Assembly: GCA_003667865.1 (NCBI GenBank)
Contig: CP033051.1
Span: 4,285,001 to 4,349,000 of the forward strand
Length of the DNA stretch: 64,000 nt
From: Rossellomorea marisflavi
Lineage (GTDB): Bacteria > Bacillota > Bacilli > Bacillales > Bacillaceae_B
Reading direction: 5' to 3'
The position numbers and the translations under genes were made by a program. The notes beneath the pieces were generated by a model, which saw only the letters and a list, made by a program, of their open reading frames with translations, was not told where the DNA came from and did not search any database. Shown in pieces: positions 5,196-63,308 of the stretch (positions within the stretch are counted from its first letter, which is position 1; every line of letters starts with the position of its first letter).

Positions 5196-5570
5196 TAAAA
5201 ATTCCTCCCTATGTATTGGTTTTTGAATCTTTTATAGATTCGTTTTTCATTATTAGATTACCAAATCTAACTAATTCCATCAATTAATATGCACAGGGTG
5301 CAAATTATATGAACATAAATACAATGCCCTTAAACGATGTTATTCAAACTAATTTTTCAAAATGATTTTTGTTTTTTTAAAAATAGTATTATGTTTATGT
5401 CATGAGCCTTTGATTTTCAGCAGAGCGGGAGTGAGCCTCCCGTCGCTTCTCTCCTGCGGTGTCCAGTCGTTCTGTTAATAGTAAACTTCGTCTTACTATT
5501 CCAGCTAGCCCTATGAGGACATACATCTCCTAGAAGATCTGATATATAAAGAGTTATTCCTAAATCAGTC
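5196..5570. other. Intergenic region with a truncated dispersed repeat
   Basis: The right end of this 375-base gap by sodA is AT-rich and holds the likely sodA promoter. At 5424-5463 a GC-rich stretch with GCGGGAGTGAGCCTCC and CTCCTGCGG matches the centre of the dispersed palindromic element found elsewhere in the window. The conserved outer ends are missing, so this looks like a decayed copy. I see no gene here. Confidence 0.6.
5424..5463 (+). repeat. Dispersed palindromic element, decayed fragment
   Basis: Shares GCGGGnGTGAGCCTCC, CGTCGCTT and CTCCTGCGGnGTC, in the same order, with the copies at 63076 and 46379. It lacks the GTTGCT and AGCAAC ends. Confidence 0.6.
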
Positions 5571-19191: not shown

Positions 19192-20145
19192 ATGGATGTT
19201 TTAAAAATAACTCCAAGAGGTTATTGCTATGGTGTTGTTGATGCCATGGTTATTGCTAGAAACGCAGCGTTAGACAAATCACTACCGCGTCCAATATATA
19301 TTCTTGGGATGATTGTTCATAACAAGCATGTTACAGATGCTTTTGAAGAAGAAGGAATCATCACTCTTGATGGCCCGAATAGAAAACAAATCTTAGAGCA
19401 GGTAGATTCAGGTACGGTCATTTTTACTGCTCATGGAGTTTCACCAGAGGTTCGTAAATTAGCTGAGGAGAAAGGGTTAGTAACGATTGATGCTACTTGC
19501 CCAGATGTAACAGTAACTCATGAGCTAATCCGTGAGAAAAAAGCTCAAGGCTATGAAGTTATTTATATTGGTAAAAAAGGCCACCCCGAACCAGAGGGAG
19601 CTGTCGGAGTAGCACCTGATATTGTACATCTTGTTGAAAATATTAAAGATGTAGAAGTACTTAACATTAAAAGTGAGAAAATCATTGTGACAAACCAAAC
19701 TACCATGAGTCAGTGGGATGTCGCAGAAACAATGAAGAGAATACAGGAAAGATACCCGCATGCTGAGCTTCATAAAGAAATTTGCTTAGCCACACAAGTT
19801 CGTCAAGAAGCTGTAGCAGAACAAGCAGGAGAAGCTGATGTATTAATTGTTGTTGGGGATCCAAAAAGTAATAATTCCAACCGTCTAGCACAAGTTTCTG
19901 CTGAAATTGCAGGAACTCCTGCCTATCGTATCTCAGATATAAGCGAGCTTGAAATTGATTGGATTAAGGATGCAAAGCTCGTCGGTGTGACGGCTGGTGC
20001 ATCAACGCCTACACCTATCGTAAAAGAAGTTATGAAGTATATTGATCAATTTGATCCAAACGATGAGTCTACCTGGAAGATAGAAAAGACTGTTCCATTA
20101 AACAAGATATTACCTAAAGTAAAAAAACCAAAGGCTATACAATAA
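19192..20145 (+). CDS. ispH: 4-hydroxy-3-methylbut-2-enyl diphosphate reductase IspH (LytB)
   Basis: Last MEP-pathway enzyme, reducing HMBPP to IPP and DMAPP with a [4Fe-4S] cluster. The 317 residues include the three cluster cysteines in [16 protein letters not shown] and KEICLAT. Substrate-binding histidines lie in IVHNKHV and TAHGVSP, and the late GASTPTP motif is present. An AGGAGG site precedes the ATG. With ispG it gives the window the two Fe-S steps of isoprenoid synthesis, both on the plus strand. Confidence 0.96.
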
Positions 20146-20156
20146 TCCCATAATAA

Positions 20157-20206
20157 AACAGGCTGTCCCTAAATCCTTACGGATAATGGGACAGCCTGTT
20201 TTTCTT
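20157..20206 (+). terminator. Terminator of ispH
   Basis: AACAGGCTGTCCC (20157-20169) pairs perfectly with GGGACAGCCTGTT (20188-20200), followed by a T-tract. Confidence 0.95.
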
Positions 20207-20380
20207 TACTATTGTTTTATGACTTCACTTAGTGATTAATAGCCTATTACGATTACCCTTTTACATCCAAATACTGAATTGAACCGCTCGTTTTCAGTTC
20301 ACGGGAACTTGTCTAACACGTGTCTTTTCATAGATTTTAACACAATATAAGATTATTAATACTGACTACTAAAGAACTCC

Positions 20381-30443: not shown

Positions 30444-30887
30444 CTAACCAACCGTGTAAAAATGTTATACTTTATATTAATTATTATATACTATTAGACA
30501 AAAAAGAAAAGACTTTCTGATTGGGTATTCATTTTCTTACATTTAAAACCATGAATTTAGTACTATTTTATTGTGACATTACTAGTTAAATCATCTAAAA
30601 AACTTATCCTAATTTCGCTACCTTAGTTATATTCAAGAATATTTTTAGGTTTTCTTACTCACTATATGGGTGTTGCTGCTATGTGTACTACAGAGTTGCT
30701 TGGAGCGGAAGGTGCTTGACTCCTGCGGGACATAGCGGGCAAAGTGAGACCCCACAGCGTAGCGAGGAGGCTCACTCCCGCCCCGCGGAAAGCAAGCACA
30801 TGGAGCGGAGAGCAGCGGCCCCTTTAAGAACCACACTGTTATGGCTTTAATTAAACTATAAATAATTAATAAGTTGTTATTTTTTTA
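30444..30887. other. Divergent intergenic region between ccpN and glyS
   Basis: The left part is AT-rich and should hold the ccpN promoter on the minus strand. A GC-rich dispersed repeat occupies 30691-30820, followed by an AT-rich tract up to the glyS promoter. Short open frames inside the repeat are not genes. Confidence 0.6.
30691..30820 (-). repeat. Dispersed palindromic element, copy 1 (inverted orientation)
   Basis: In family orientation it is read on the minus strand. It carries TTGCTTTCCGCGGGG, GTGAGCCTCCTCG, GGGGTCTCAC, CCCGCAGGAGTCAAGCACC and CTTCCGCTCCAAGCAAC. The arms GCGGGAGTGAG and CTCACTTTGCCCGC pair. It is the only copy on this strand. Confidence 0.85.
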
Positions 30888-33700: not shown

Positions 33701-35455
<1,755 letters not shown>

Positions 35456-46378: not shown

Positions 46379-46488
46379 CCGTTGCTTTCCGCGGGGCGAC
46401 GGTGAGCCTCCTCTGCGCTTGCGCCTGCGGGGTCTCACCAGTGCCGCTATGTCCCGCAGGAGTCAAGCACCTTCCGCTCCAAGCAACT
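46379..46488 (+). repeat. Dispersed palindromic element, copy 3 (internally deleted)
   Basis: It starts GTTGCTTTCCGCGGGG and ends CTTCCGCTCCAAGCAAC. Compared with copies 5 and 6, about 21 bases are missing at the left. The missing part is flanked in those copies by two GCTTTCCGC repeats (one imperfect in copy 5), which suggests loss by recombination or slippage. The pair GGTGAG/CTCACC is kept. Confidence 0.88.
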
Positions 46489-46542
46489 TTGTAGTTTGAG
46501 AAATCTTTAGGTTTTGAACTTTTTTATTGCACCCATAAAAAC

Positions 46543-47262: not shown

Positions 47263-47557
47263 ATGATTCTCTCCTTTTAACAGTTGTCCGTACCTTTTTA
47301 CATCATATCAAATGAAATAATAAAAGACGACTCTTTTATTATTTTGCCCTTATTTTTTCATTAGTAGAAGAGAATTTTTACCTAACGCTTTTCCTATACG
47401 TTGTTACTTTTTAACTCGTTTCTGCTAGTAATATGTTCATTATTAGTTCTAGACACTTGTTTTCCAAAGGGAGGAAGTAGATTCACTAGGGTAGACATTT
47501 CCCGCTCCAATCCACTTTAGAGTATTCCTAAACAAAAATCTTTCCGAAAACAGCCTA
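47263..47557. other. Intergenic region with a repeat fragment
   Basis: The side next to deoC should hold its promoter. A fragment around 47495-47512 (CATTTCCCGCTCCAATCCA) resembles the right end of the dispersed element but lacks the rest. No gene is seen. Confidence 0.5.
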
Positions 47558-49456: not shown

Positions 49457-49622
49457 CATTGTTTTCCGTTCCAGGAGCTTGCTTTCTGCGGGGTGGGGGG
49501 CAAGCCTGCGGGGCTCCGTTCCAAGTTGTACCGAAACTTGGTCTCAAACCGGGGGTGAGTGCTCTAGCATTCAACCCTTCCCGTTATATTACGCAGGAGT
49601 CAAGCTCCTTACGCTCTGAGTA
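49457..49622 (+). repeat. Dispersed palindromic element, copy 4 (expanded centre)
   Basis: It keeps CATTGTTTTCCGTTCCAGGAGCTTGCTTTCTGCGGGG at the left in diverged form, and ACGCAGGAGTCAAGCTCCTTACGCTC at the right. The centre is longer than in other copies and carries its own stem CCAAGTT/AACTTGG. Confidence 0.75.
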
Positions 49623-49717
49623 CCTCTGAAGTGTTAACTTGTTTGATGATAAACTTAAATTCTAAAGACATTAAGAAAATGTGCAACTCGTTTTCTAGCC
49701 CTCTTTTATTTATTTAA

Positions 49718-60965: not shown

Positions 60966-61340
60966 TAACGTTCAACTCCTGTAATCCACACATGTGCACT
61001 ATTTTGAATTATAGCAGTACATACATCAATATTCAATGTAAACAATATTGGTGTTGGTTTTAATAAAAGGCCCGTTGCTTTCCGCTCCAGGGTGCTTGCT
61101 TGCCGTGGGGCGGGAGGTGAGCCTCCTTTAGGAAGGTTCCTTCCGGTGGGTACGGAACCCGGGTCTCACCTTTCCCGCAATTTCCACTGGAGTCAACCAC
61201 CCTTCGGCTCCAAGCAACTCTGTAGTTATAATGTTGAATAGTTCCTTAAAACATACGGGAGGTTTCTCATGCTTCTATCATTTGTTCTAAGGAAGCGCAA
61301 GAACCGCCCCCACGCTTCCACGCACGCTTCCCTATAAAGA
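60966..61340. other. Intergenic region between lepA and yqxA
   Basis: It contains dispersed repeat copy 5 and, at 61291-61331, a hairpin GGAAGCG/CGCTTCC with a second CGCTTCC next to it. No gene is visible. The lepA promoter should lie close to 60980-61060 on the minus strand. Confidence 0.6.
61071..61218 (+). repeat. Dispersed palindromic element, copy 5
   Basis: Complete ends: CGTTGCTTTCCGCTCCAGG and CTCCAAGCAAC. The arms CGGGAGGTGAG and CTCACCTTTCCCG pair. The loop is different from other copies and contains GGAAGGTTCC and GGAACC. Confidence 0.88.
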
Positions 61341-61363
61341 AAAAACTGGCTTAGTTAGCCAGT
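61341..61363 (-). terminator. Terminator of spoIIP-yqxA
   Basis: ACTGGCT (61345-61351) pairs with AGCCAGT (61357-61363), followed by T-rich sequence on the minus strand. Confidence 0.85.
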
Positions 61364-61364
61364 G

Positions 61365-61700
61365 TTAGATTAGCGTTGAGATCCATTCTACTAGTGATTT
61401 TGTAGAGGTTGATACAAAGTTTGCAAGGTTTTTGCCTATTGATGAGAAGAAGTTAAAGGCTTTCATTTCTTCTAGTTTTTCTTTTTTTTCAGCAATGGTT
61501 TCTTTTTTTATTTCGTTACCTAGAATGGATGCTTCGATGTTACCTGATTCATTTTGCTGTATTTGGACAGGGGTTTGGAAGCTTGATTCTTTTAAGCCTT
61601 TCATCTCTAATATCCCATTGCTCGCATATTGCATACCTAATAATACTCCGATAAATAGAATTGATACTAGTGTGAGACTTTTTAACATAAATAGTTTCAA
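61365..61700 (-). CDS. yqxA: YqxA-like small membrane protein
   Basis: Protein of 111 residues with an N-terminal membrane anchor (about 5-25), a charged central stretch (EIKKETIAEKKEKLEEM) and an amphipathic C-terminal end. Its position after spoIIP matches B. subtilis yqxA (DUF3679); the function is unknown. The start is a TTG at 61700 five bases after AGGAGGGG; an in-frame ATG at 61688 is too far from that site. Confidence 0.75.
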   Translation of the reverse strand: MKLFMLKSLTLVSILFIGVLLGMQYASNGILEMKGLKESSFQTPVQIQQNESGNIEASILGNEIKKETIAEKKEKLEEMKAFNFFSSIGKNLANFVSTSTKSLVEWISTLI

Positions 61701-61735
61701 GCTAACCCCTCCTATCTAAATACATTCAGGTACCA

Positions 61736-62938
61736 TTATTGACTTGAAGCTGGAACTGTAATCTGATGATCTACTTTTTCAGCCTGCCAATAATATTCTG
61801 CAAAGATATCTGCAAAGGCTTCAGCAGATCGATCAAGCTCTTCAAATGTATTGTCTACTCCACCAAATTCAAGTAGTAGTGCATTGTTTGAAAGGTCTTG
61901 ATTGAACTTTCCGTTTGTCCCGCTTCCTTTCTTTAAGAAAACCCCACGAGATAGACCTTTGTACTTTTTCTGTAGCATATTGTGAAGTTCTGTTGCTATC
62001 TTTAAGTTCTTTTCATAATTTTGGTGCTCTCCACCTACAACAAATGCCAATTTTGCATATGATTTTCCATTTATATCAATTGTCGTGATATCTTTTCGAT
62101 GTGAGTCACGATGGATATCGATAAGGTAGATTAAATCTTTATTTGTTGTAACAGCTGCTTGAGCAATTTGCCTTGATTCTTCGTAAGCTGACCAATATTC
62201 AAGTCCCTTCTTACTTAAATTGCCGATTACATCCGTTTTATCGATAGAGGTTCCAATTCCCAGCTGTTCTAATTCACCTTTTAATTTGTCTCCAACTTTT
62301 GTCACATTGATCTTCGAGTGGTGAGCATCATCTGGATTTTTAACCCCTTTTAGATAGGGCAGATAGGACTCACGATTATGTGTAAAATACAAATGAACTG
62401 TTTTCTTTTCACCAGTTGTTAAAGGTGATTTTACTTCATCTTGGTTACTGCTATTAATTGTGTCTGTATTTTGTAAGTCTGCTTCATTTTCAACAGCAAT
62501 GGATTCCTTCGGAGGAACTGACTCATGAGGCATATTCGTAAAGTCTGTCCCTTCTCCTGCTACTAATATTTCACTATCAAATATCGAAAAGCCAGGTAGT
62601 TCTCTCCCAAGGAAACTTCTTGGGTCCTCGAACCGAACATTTGCAGCAATTTGAAAGAATATACTACTTAAGCTTGGCCATTCCTCACTTTCTAGAGAAA
62701 TACTTGAAAAGGCTCTGTTTTCTAGTTCGAATAGTGTGTACAGTGATTCTCCTGAAACATGCTCTGCTGCCTCATTTAGTGCTGTTGACATGATTCGATA
62801 TTCTGGTTTCAGTGATGTAAGGATTCCCGAAATTGAAAAGATCGAGAGTAAGCTTACTAGGAAAATGAGAAGCCCTTTTAGAATTGTTGACATATTGATT
62901 GCTAGGACGTAATTGGAATGTTGTTTTAACGACTTCAC
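61736..62938 (-). CDS. spoIIP: Stage II sporulation protein SpoIIP, peptidoglycan hydrolase
   Basis: Amidase/endopeptidase of the DMP engulfment complex, about 400 residues. It has one membrane anchor near 20-42, an outside linker, and a C-terminal amidase domain. Zinc-site motifs are YFTHNRESYLP, IDIHRDSHRKD and the catalytic LLLEFGGVD. It removes septal peptidoglycan as the mother cell engulfs the forespore. The GTG at 62938 has AAAGGGTGG upstream; an alternative GTG three codons earlier overlaps that site. Confidence 0.93.
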   Translation of the reverse strand: MKSLKQHSNYVLAINMSTILKGLLIFLVSLLSIFSISGILTSLKPEYRIMSTALNEAAEHVSGESLYTLFELENRAFSSISLESEEWPSLSSIFFQIAANVRFEDPRSFLGRELPGFSIFDSEILVAGEGTDFTNMPHESVPPKESIAVENEADLQNTDTINSSNQDEVKSPLTTGEKKTVHLYFTHNRESYLPYLKGVKNPDDAHHSKINVTKVGDKLKGELEQLGIGTSIDKTDVIGNLSKKGLEYWSAYEESRQIAQAAVTTNKDLIYLIDIHRDSHRKDITTIDINGKSYAKLAFVVGGEHQNYEKNLKIATELHNMLQKKYKGLSRGVFLKKGSGTNGKFNQDLSNNALLLEFGGVDNTFEELDRSAEAFADIFAEYYWQAEKVDHQITVPASSQ

Positions 62939-62947
62939 TAGTTCCAC

Positions 62948-63308
62948 CCTTTCTACTCTACTCTTTTACAGTCTATGAATTTGATAGAGAGAGTAGAACT
63001 AGTAATGTGATCTTTGATTGATTTGGTATAGTACATAATGTGACACCTTGTGACTTTCTGTTTTTCTATTAATAGCCCGTTGCTTTCCGCTCCAGGTTGC
63101 TTGCTTTCCGCGGGGTGAGCGGTGAGCCTCCTCGTCGCTTTGCTCCTGCGGGGTCTCACCCTGCTCACTATTCCCGCAGGAGTCAATCAACCTTCCGCTC
63201 CAAGCAACTCAGTAGTGTTACTAAGTTACTTTTAAAATTTTGCGTAATCTTCTTAAGGAATCGATGAAAACATTCTCAATCTTTATATAATTCATTAATA
63301 CATTAACG
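62948..63308. other. Intergenic region between gpr and spoIIP
   Basis: It holds dispersed repeat copy 6 and, next to spoIIP, about 120 AT-rich bases that should carry its sporulation promoter. I could not identify a convincing sigma-E match. Short frames within the repeat are not genes. Confidence 0.6.
63076..63208 (+). repeat. Dispersed palindromic element, copy 6 (best preserved)
   Basis: Full ends CGTTGCTTTCCGCTCC and CTTCCGCTCCAAGCAAC. Core: GCGGGGTGAGCGGTGAG, CCTCCTCGTCGCTTTGCTCC, then GGGGTCTCACCCTGCTCAC and CCCGCAGGAGTCAA. The arms GTGAGC-GGTGAG and CTCACC-CTGCTCAC pair. Confidence 0.9.

Follow-up and report, generated by a model that had tools for sequence, protein, structure and literature searches.

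Hairpin copies in the analysed window

The window (the whole 64-kb stretch analysed, G000:C1:4285001-4349000 of a single-contig host genome of 4,591,517 bases) contains a GC-rich palindrome that recurs between genes, and the question it raises is whether such a repeat is kept as a folded RNA, as a DNA palindrome or as a small mobile element. A first-pass annotation had proposed six copies and two fragments in a low-GC background and had read their covarying arms as the trace of selection on a folded RNA or a cruciform, or as a small non-autonomous mobile element. All six copies and both fragments were found in the window sequence (36.7% GC) close to the positions proposed, and a repeat search joined the six copies through families D1, D4 and I1. 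The features are as follows.

5415..5440, plus strand: fragment, hairpin centre; inverted repeat I14 shared with copy 1
30687..30819, minus strand: hairpin copy 1, 133-nt form; covariance-model match G000:C1:4315687-4315819:-
35235..35376, plus strand: hairpin copy 2, diverged; covariance-model match G000:C1:4320235-4320376:+
46379..46495, plus strand: hairpin copy 3, left arm partly lost; covariance-model match G000:C1:4331355-4331495:+, start read by eye
47450..47555, plus strand: remnant of the end-bearing form; terminal repeat at 47533-47555, hairpin remnant by eye
49457..49632, plus strand: hairpin copy 4, degenerate; repeat families D1 and D4, outside the 143 model matches
61071..61226, plus strand: hairpin copy 5, 156 nt, with an apical hairpin module; covariance-model match G000:C1:4346071-4346226:+
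63076..63216, plus strand: hairpin copy 6, 141 nt; covariance-model match G000:C1:4348076-4348216:+, fold (MFE) z-score -4.86

The covarying sets of central arms were correct as annotated, and the copies lay near their proposed places, but the right end had been set 7-8 bases short of the true end (...CTCTGTAGT), for example in the copies now delimited at 61071-61226 and 63076-63216. The copy annotated at 30691 is present but lies on the minus strand, that at 46379 is present but lacks part of its left arm (judged by eye), and that at 49457 is present but degenerate, with apparent extra hairpin modules, again judged by eye, and is the sole one of the six not among the 143 host matches to the covariance model. 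The first-pass observation was confirmed and its interpretation was partly supported. Elsewhere in the window, an inverted repeat at 20137-20220 has arms that are 73% complementary, includes CAGGCTGTCCC and GGGACAGCCTG, and resembles a transposon end or a terminator.

Copy number and forms in the host genome

A covariance model was built from 34 copies (alignment A1) and searched in the host and its relatives, as the first-pass annotation had advised. At least 143 matches were obtained in the host genome at E 0.01, a lower bound because the best 150 of 636 candidates were scored. Copy length was mostly 133 to 162 nt among the matches listed, with shorter and longer forms too. An extra hairpin module was present in 33 of the 143 host copies, a second module in 3 and a long structured insert (M3) in 11. 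M3 had been considered as a possible RNA; Rfam gave no match, and the insert turned out to be a separate repeat family with 17 host matches. This second structured family (CGAAAAGCGGAGG...GCCGGAGCTAGACA) occurs at host positions 1496411-1496557 and 16 other places, as well as in genomes G008, G009 and G011, and was not found in plasmids. At host positions 409894-410379, three hairpins form a tandem array in which the period is about 175 bases.

The copies had been described as lying only between genes, and this held for 119 of the 143 host copies, which had no overlap of more than 30 bases with a kept open frame of at least 80 aa as called by a crude frame caller; the other 24 overlapped such frames, mostly of less than 430 nt, with one of 759 nt. 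No dedicated neighbour gene was found beside 256 hairpins in 195 loci, the largest clusters of neighbours covering 5 of the 195 loci and looking generic.

Spread across Bacilli

The first-pass annotation had mentioned similar sequences in other Bacillaceae, and their wide occurrence was confirmed. The hairpin model matched 35 of the 41 genomes tried and 11 of 17 genera, host included, and in a class-wide survey, in which eight candidates were scored per genome, it matched 95 of 398 genomes and 35 of 146 genera, again with the host included. A pattern scan of named genomes gave, among the matches listed (80 of at least 120 stretches), Peribacillus, Priestia, Sutcliffiella, Gottfriedia, Cytobacillus, Metabacillus, Neobacillus, Oceanobacillus, Sporosarcina, Lysinibacillus, Planococcus and Halobacillus, together with two entries labelled as metagenome bins from other phyla and one labelled Pseudomonas. 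Two records labelled 'Arthrobacter citreus' (CP053689.1, L458) and 'Pseudomonas sp.' (JAGGRA010000002.1, L357) carry Bacillaceae-type elements, and their labels may be wrong.

Copy number was 14, 28, 32, 39 and 95 in five sister species, which are 92.5-97.0% identical over the best local alignments at one locus. The phage collection gave no hairpin match; among viral contigs one stretch matched the hairpin, and the IS1595-type end pattern was absent there. The hairpin family is spread through many Bacilli, and in the accessible text of the literature on its core words, on repeats and MITEs, on EFAR and on IS1182 hairpins we found neither a name for it nor a description.

Covariation and the level at which the palindrome is kept

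The first-pass annotation had made its claim depend on genome-wide covariation, and this was strong. In alignment A1, 18 of 38 pairs and 49 cells changed on both sides, compared to shuffled means of 4.6 and 9.2; none of 500 shuffles reached the observed values and six controls in which the structure was slid gave at most 5 pairs, although the shuffle statistics ignore kinship among copies and the alignments behind the counts were fitted to the model. Comparison of nearest copies gave 64 two-sided Watson-Crick changes where about 12 were expected, 20 of the 64 being transversion pairs, alongside 224 one-sided changes.

A structured RNA is expected to keep G-U over A-C on the transcribed strand, and no such excess was found. 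With two columns of T.G majority omitted per set, 95 host copies had 58 G.T cells and 80 A.C cells, and 65 copies from other genomes (75 hits minus 10 overlapping reverse-strand hits) had 30 and 26, respectively. As the two kinds of cell are near parity, neither strand displays a clear wobble preference. Of two T.G pairs, one was retained in 90 of 95 host copies and the other in 81 of 87, and the minus strand was lower in energy in about 101 of 134 host copies. Rfam gave nothing at threshold on the window, nor on the element in 8 loci or in a run of 11 loci, in which weak sub-threshold matches were taken as chance; membership of a known Rfam family, which would have counted against the annotation, was not found. 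The pattern does not look like that of an RNA under selection, and fits a constraint on DNA or a copying process.

We consider it unlikely that the element is transcribed and its fold selected in RNA, as part of an mRNA 3' or 5' region or as a processing or attenuation signal. Such a role could draw on the covariation itself, on the conservation of the core sequence across genera, on the position of the hairpin before a transposase gene, on the same strand, in one IS1182 subclade (see below), and on orientation, since the plus orientation of the hairpin opposed the genes in 68 of 80 tandem gene pairs in the host. Other genomes show less of this bias (18 opposite, 9 same), and in the host, where GC skew over the fetched pieces suggests a replication origin near 1.0 Mb, hairpin orientation is confounded with replication direction, so the bias was rejected as proof of RNA function. 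A terminator-like hairpin, moreover, separates the gene end from the element in 43 of 116 cases, compared to 14 of 116 on the opposite strand. Together with the wobble parity and the lack of an Rfam match on the element, this counts against the folded-RNA half of the first-pass interpretation.

Covariation could also arise without selection. Intrastrand template switching, in which one arm is copied onto the other, would keep any long palindrome paired, and we regard this as plausible, if somewhat short of probable. The excess of two-sided changes with its transversion pairs, the symmetry of the wobble cells and the presence of one-base deletions in both arms at locus L014 are in its favour, as is a comparison between species: at one site genomes G013 and G017 have their flanks in common and differ in their arms by compensation en bloc. 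At the same site, G022 has arms of the G017 type with a left flank that does not align, the hairpin of G010 has been deleted and another copy stands there in G046; at another site one arm was lost in G010. Gene conversion from another copy could, however, account for the G013/G017 site, and fixed mismatches and core sequence persist across genera; the two retained T.G pairs in particular count against template-switch repair, which would tend to erase them.

Upkeep as a DNA palindrome is compatible with these data. The palindrome would then be maintained at the DNA level and not as RNA, through arm-to-arm template-switch copying, through selection for a cruciform or a single-strand hairpin, or through both. 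Covariation this strong, unaccompanied by the wobble signature of an RNA, is a warning for covariation-based RNA discovery, and the many paired arms per genome provide material for testing template switching as the keeper of paired palindromes.

IS1595-type units carrying the hairpin

Twelve hairpin copies from G014, chosen for similar scores, had about 50 bases to the left and several hundred to the right in common, followed by a sharp stop with unrelated DNA beyond, and the ends of these shared stretches are inverted repeats. Their right parts contain another palindrome of this kind in the reverse orientation (12 of 12 when judged by its first half, 9 of 12 by profile). A search for end pairs in all fetched loci gave 39 units with 23-bp terminal inverted repeats (GGCTSTTTTCGNAAAGWTTGTTG), a list that retains a few overlapping or chance pairs, and 34 of these units contain the hairpin. 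Perfect target duplications flank 19 of the 34 (18 of 8 bp and one of 7 bp; the other 15 have neither), all 19 duplications found in the list fall among these hairpin units, and the duplications are AT-rich. When left flanks were paired with the right flanks of other units as a control, only 7 of 1,482 mismatched pairings had a duplication. Units with one hairpin measure 207-282 bp and the longer ones 383-707 bp, 10 of the latter showing another hairpin of reversed sense. The host genome holds one unit with both ends (1887240-1887469), with the duplication ATACTTTA. In the units of relatives and in this host unit the terminal inverted repeats are of the IS1595 type, and the 8-bp duplication accompanies them in the 18 hairpin units counted above.

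A candidate source of transposase was found through the end of the host unit. A plasmid of Niallia sp. Man26 (L542) carries a 1,765-bp element with matching ends, which total 3 mismatches across the two, flanked by an 8-bp duplication (TTTTTAAA). It encodes an annotated IS1595-family transposase with a PF12762 match of 1.3e-14 and a zinc-ribbon match below the cut-off, and a DinB-family gene also lies inside the element (L542 4123-4647). Between such ends, L541 has a broken transposase homologue and an 8-bp duplication (TAAAATAA), and L539 has pieces of a transposase homologue. At three of the six plasmid places examined (of at least 13 hits listed) the end was present with no IS1595 homologue. 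Duplications of 8 bp suggested ISL3 as a source of transposase; PF01610 was found in 1 of 12 genomes and was absent from G014, and the candidate was rejected.

The units resemble IS1595-family MITEs in their shortness, their many copies, their 8-bp target duplications and the ends that they share with an IS1595 element. They differ in that their hairpin body is a conserved, covarying palindrome that is found outside such units too, and the main host hairpin copies are without such ends. We think it fairly probable that the repeats represent one palindromic DNA element, present in many Bacilli, which in relatives at least is dispersed as the body of small non-autonomous transposons, and the IS1595 transposase may move these hairpin MITEs in trans. 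An abundant intergenic repeat of Bacilli thereby gains ends, target duplications and a candidate transposase, and with these known such stretches need not be read as regulatory RNAs.

Copies without IS1595-type ends and comparisons between species

Among 129 alignable host copies, which cover five of the six window copies (the one at 49457 being left out), the IS1595-type left end was found in 0 and the right end in 1 (threshold 16 of 22), and no offset stood out as a target duplication. A scan of the whole window gave a single IS1595-type end, in the fragment at 47450-47555. Because the ends are missing apart from this fragment, the window copies are members of the hairpin family and, by this test, not IS1595 MITEs. 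The mobile-element half of the first-pass interpretation is consequently supported for the family, with its end-delimited units, target duplications, near-identical copies at unrelated sites and IS1595 element with matching ends, but not for the window copies, which are without those ends. In one host subfamily, 3 of 5 copies keep recognisable IS1595-type ends. The main host copies have conserved flanks, with CTTTTTnAnnGGN preceding the stem and CTCTGTAGTTTTAC following it, which suggest ends without an inverted repeat. The end-less copies, which dominate in the host and the window, may belong to the same family and have spread by another route. Insertion into stem-loops was rejected as such a route, as the pairing between flanks equalled shuffled pairing across the 129 copies.

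The first-pass annotation had also proposed looking for target duplications at empty sites in related strains. In the sister-species comparison no clean empty site was found for units with IS1595 ends, the differences other than the one that follows being deletions or uncertain alignments. The clean case belongs to a 330-bp hairpin-carrying unit of another type, whose left end presumably resembles that of an IS1182 element; G013 and G014 have the unit, and the site is empty in G010, G046, G017 and G022. Near-identical plasmids that could have served as empty sites were sought and none was found. A further site was filled in G023, G022 and G015 and empty in four others, and these empty sites most simply arose by deletion, because further species also have the hairpin there.

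Comparison with other repeat systems

High copy number, palindromic structure, some inverted pairs and the lack of target duplication in the main host copies would all agree with a REP or REPIN moved by a RAYT (Y1) transposase, and dispersed intergenic palindromes, at times in inverted pairs, are likewise typical of REP, BIME and REPIN sequences. The hairpin is far longer than these, and no cognate RAYT was found in the host, where both RAYT-like genes among six Y1 hits are surrounded by other short repeats and were rejected as partners. As there is also no recurrent gene adjoining the hairpins, we judge this origin very unlikely. The two RAYT-like genes (L117 1090-1914 and L118 1297-1863, within host positions 696034-699369 and 787628-790963) have short repeats of their own, of the GGGGACGCTTC type and the AGAGGGACGGACCTT type.

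EFAR of Enterococcus faecalis (Venditti et al. 2007) reportedly consists of modular intergenic palindromes with variably assembled blocks, and is said to insert into stem-loops and to leave stem remnants at its ends. Compared by this description, the hairpin family is similar in its intergenic siting and its palindromic modules, which were observed here, and differs in having no flank complementarity. Two Bacillus repeats were compared by description only, from PMC2267715. Bhal-1 of Bacillus halodurans (36 copies) is likewise a stem-loop repeat in a Bacillus genome and differs in its length of 74 nt, and bcr1 also has mobile-element features but is, according to a title cited there, specific to the Bacillus cereus group.

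IS1182 elements and the hairpin

In Peribacillus, G027 and G142, a subclade of IS1182 elements has the hairpin after its left terminator and about 70-80 bases upstream of the transposase start codon, on the strand of that gene. Two other IS1182 elements, from two genera (G034 and G046) and 62% identical, are inserted in the apical loop of the hairpin at an identical point, and IS1272 and TnSha1 of the same family are reported to target hairpins (PMC4923244). IS1182 elements with a preference for stem-loops might accordingly disperse the hairpin as a passenger or maintain it as a target, but we find this improbable as a general account. Seven of the 10 plasmid homologues examined (of 329 records) are without the hairpin, it was found in 0 of 8 host IS1182 loci, 140 of the 143 hairpins in the host lack an AGGCTGRGACA-type end at a distance of up to 400 bases, and no PF05598 match was found in G022, G010 and G017 despite their 95, 99 and 56 hairpin copies.

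Spread as the body of small non-autonomous transposons remains the reading that we prefer. Tentatively, and with more doubt than confidence, we suggest that a single conserved DNA hairpin serves as a transferable cassette and has been taken up by transposons of unrelated types across Bacilli (IS1595 MITEs, the IS1182 subclade, MITEs with other ends and end-less copies), with its arms kept paired by DNA-level copying, and that it is itself a landing site for other IS1182 elements. Six IS1182-family transposase frames in the host, each of 515 aa (L447, L449, L450, L452, L454 and L455), score equally, and at the left ends that were read (L447 and L450) the element abuts sequence resembling the RAYT-associated repeat.
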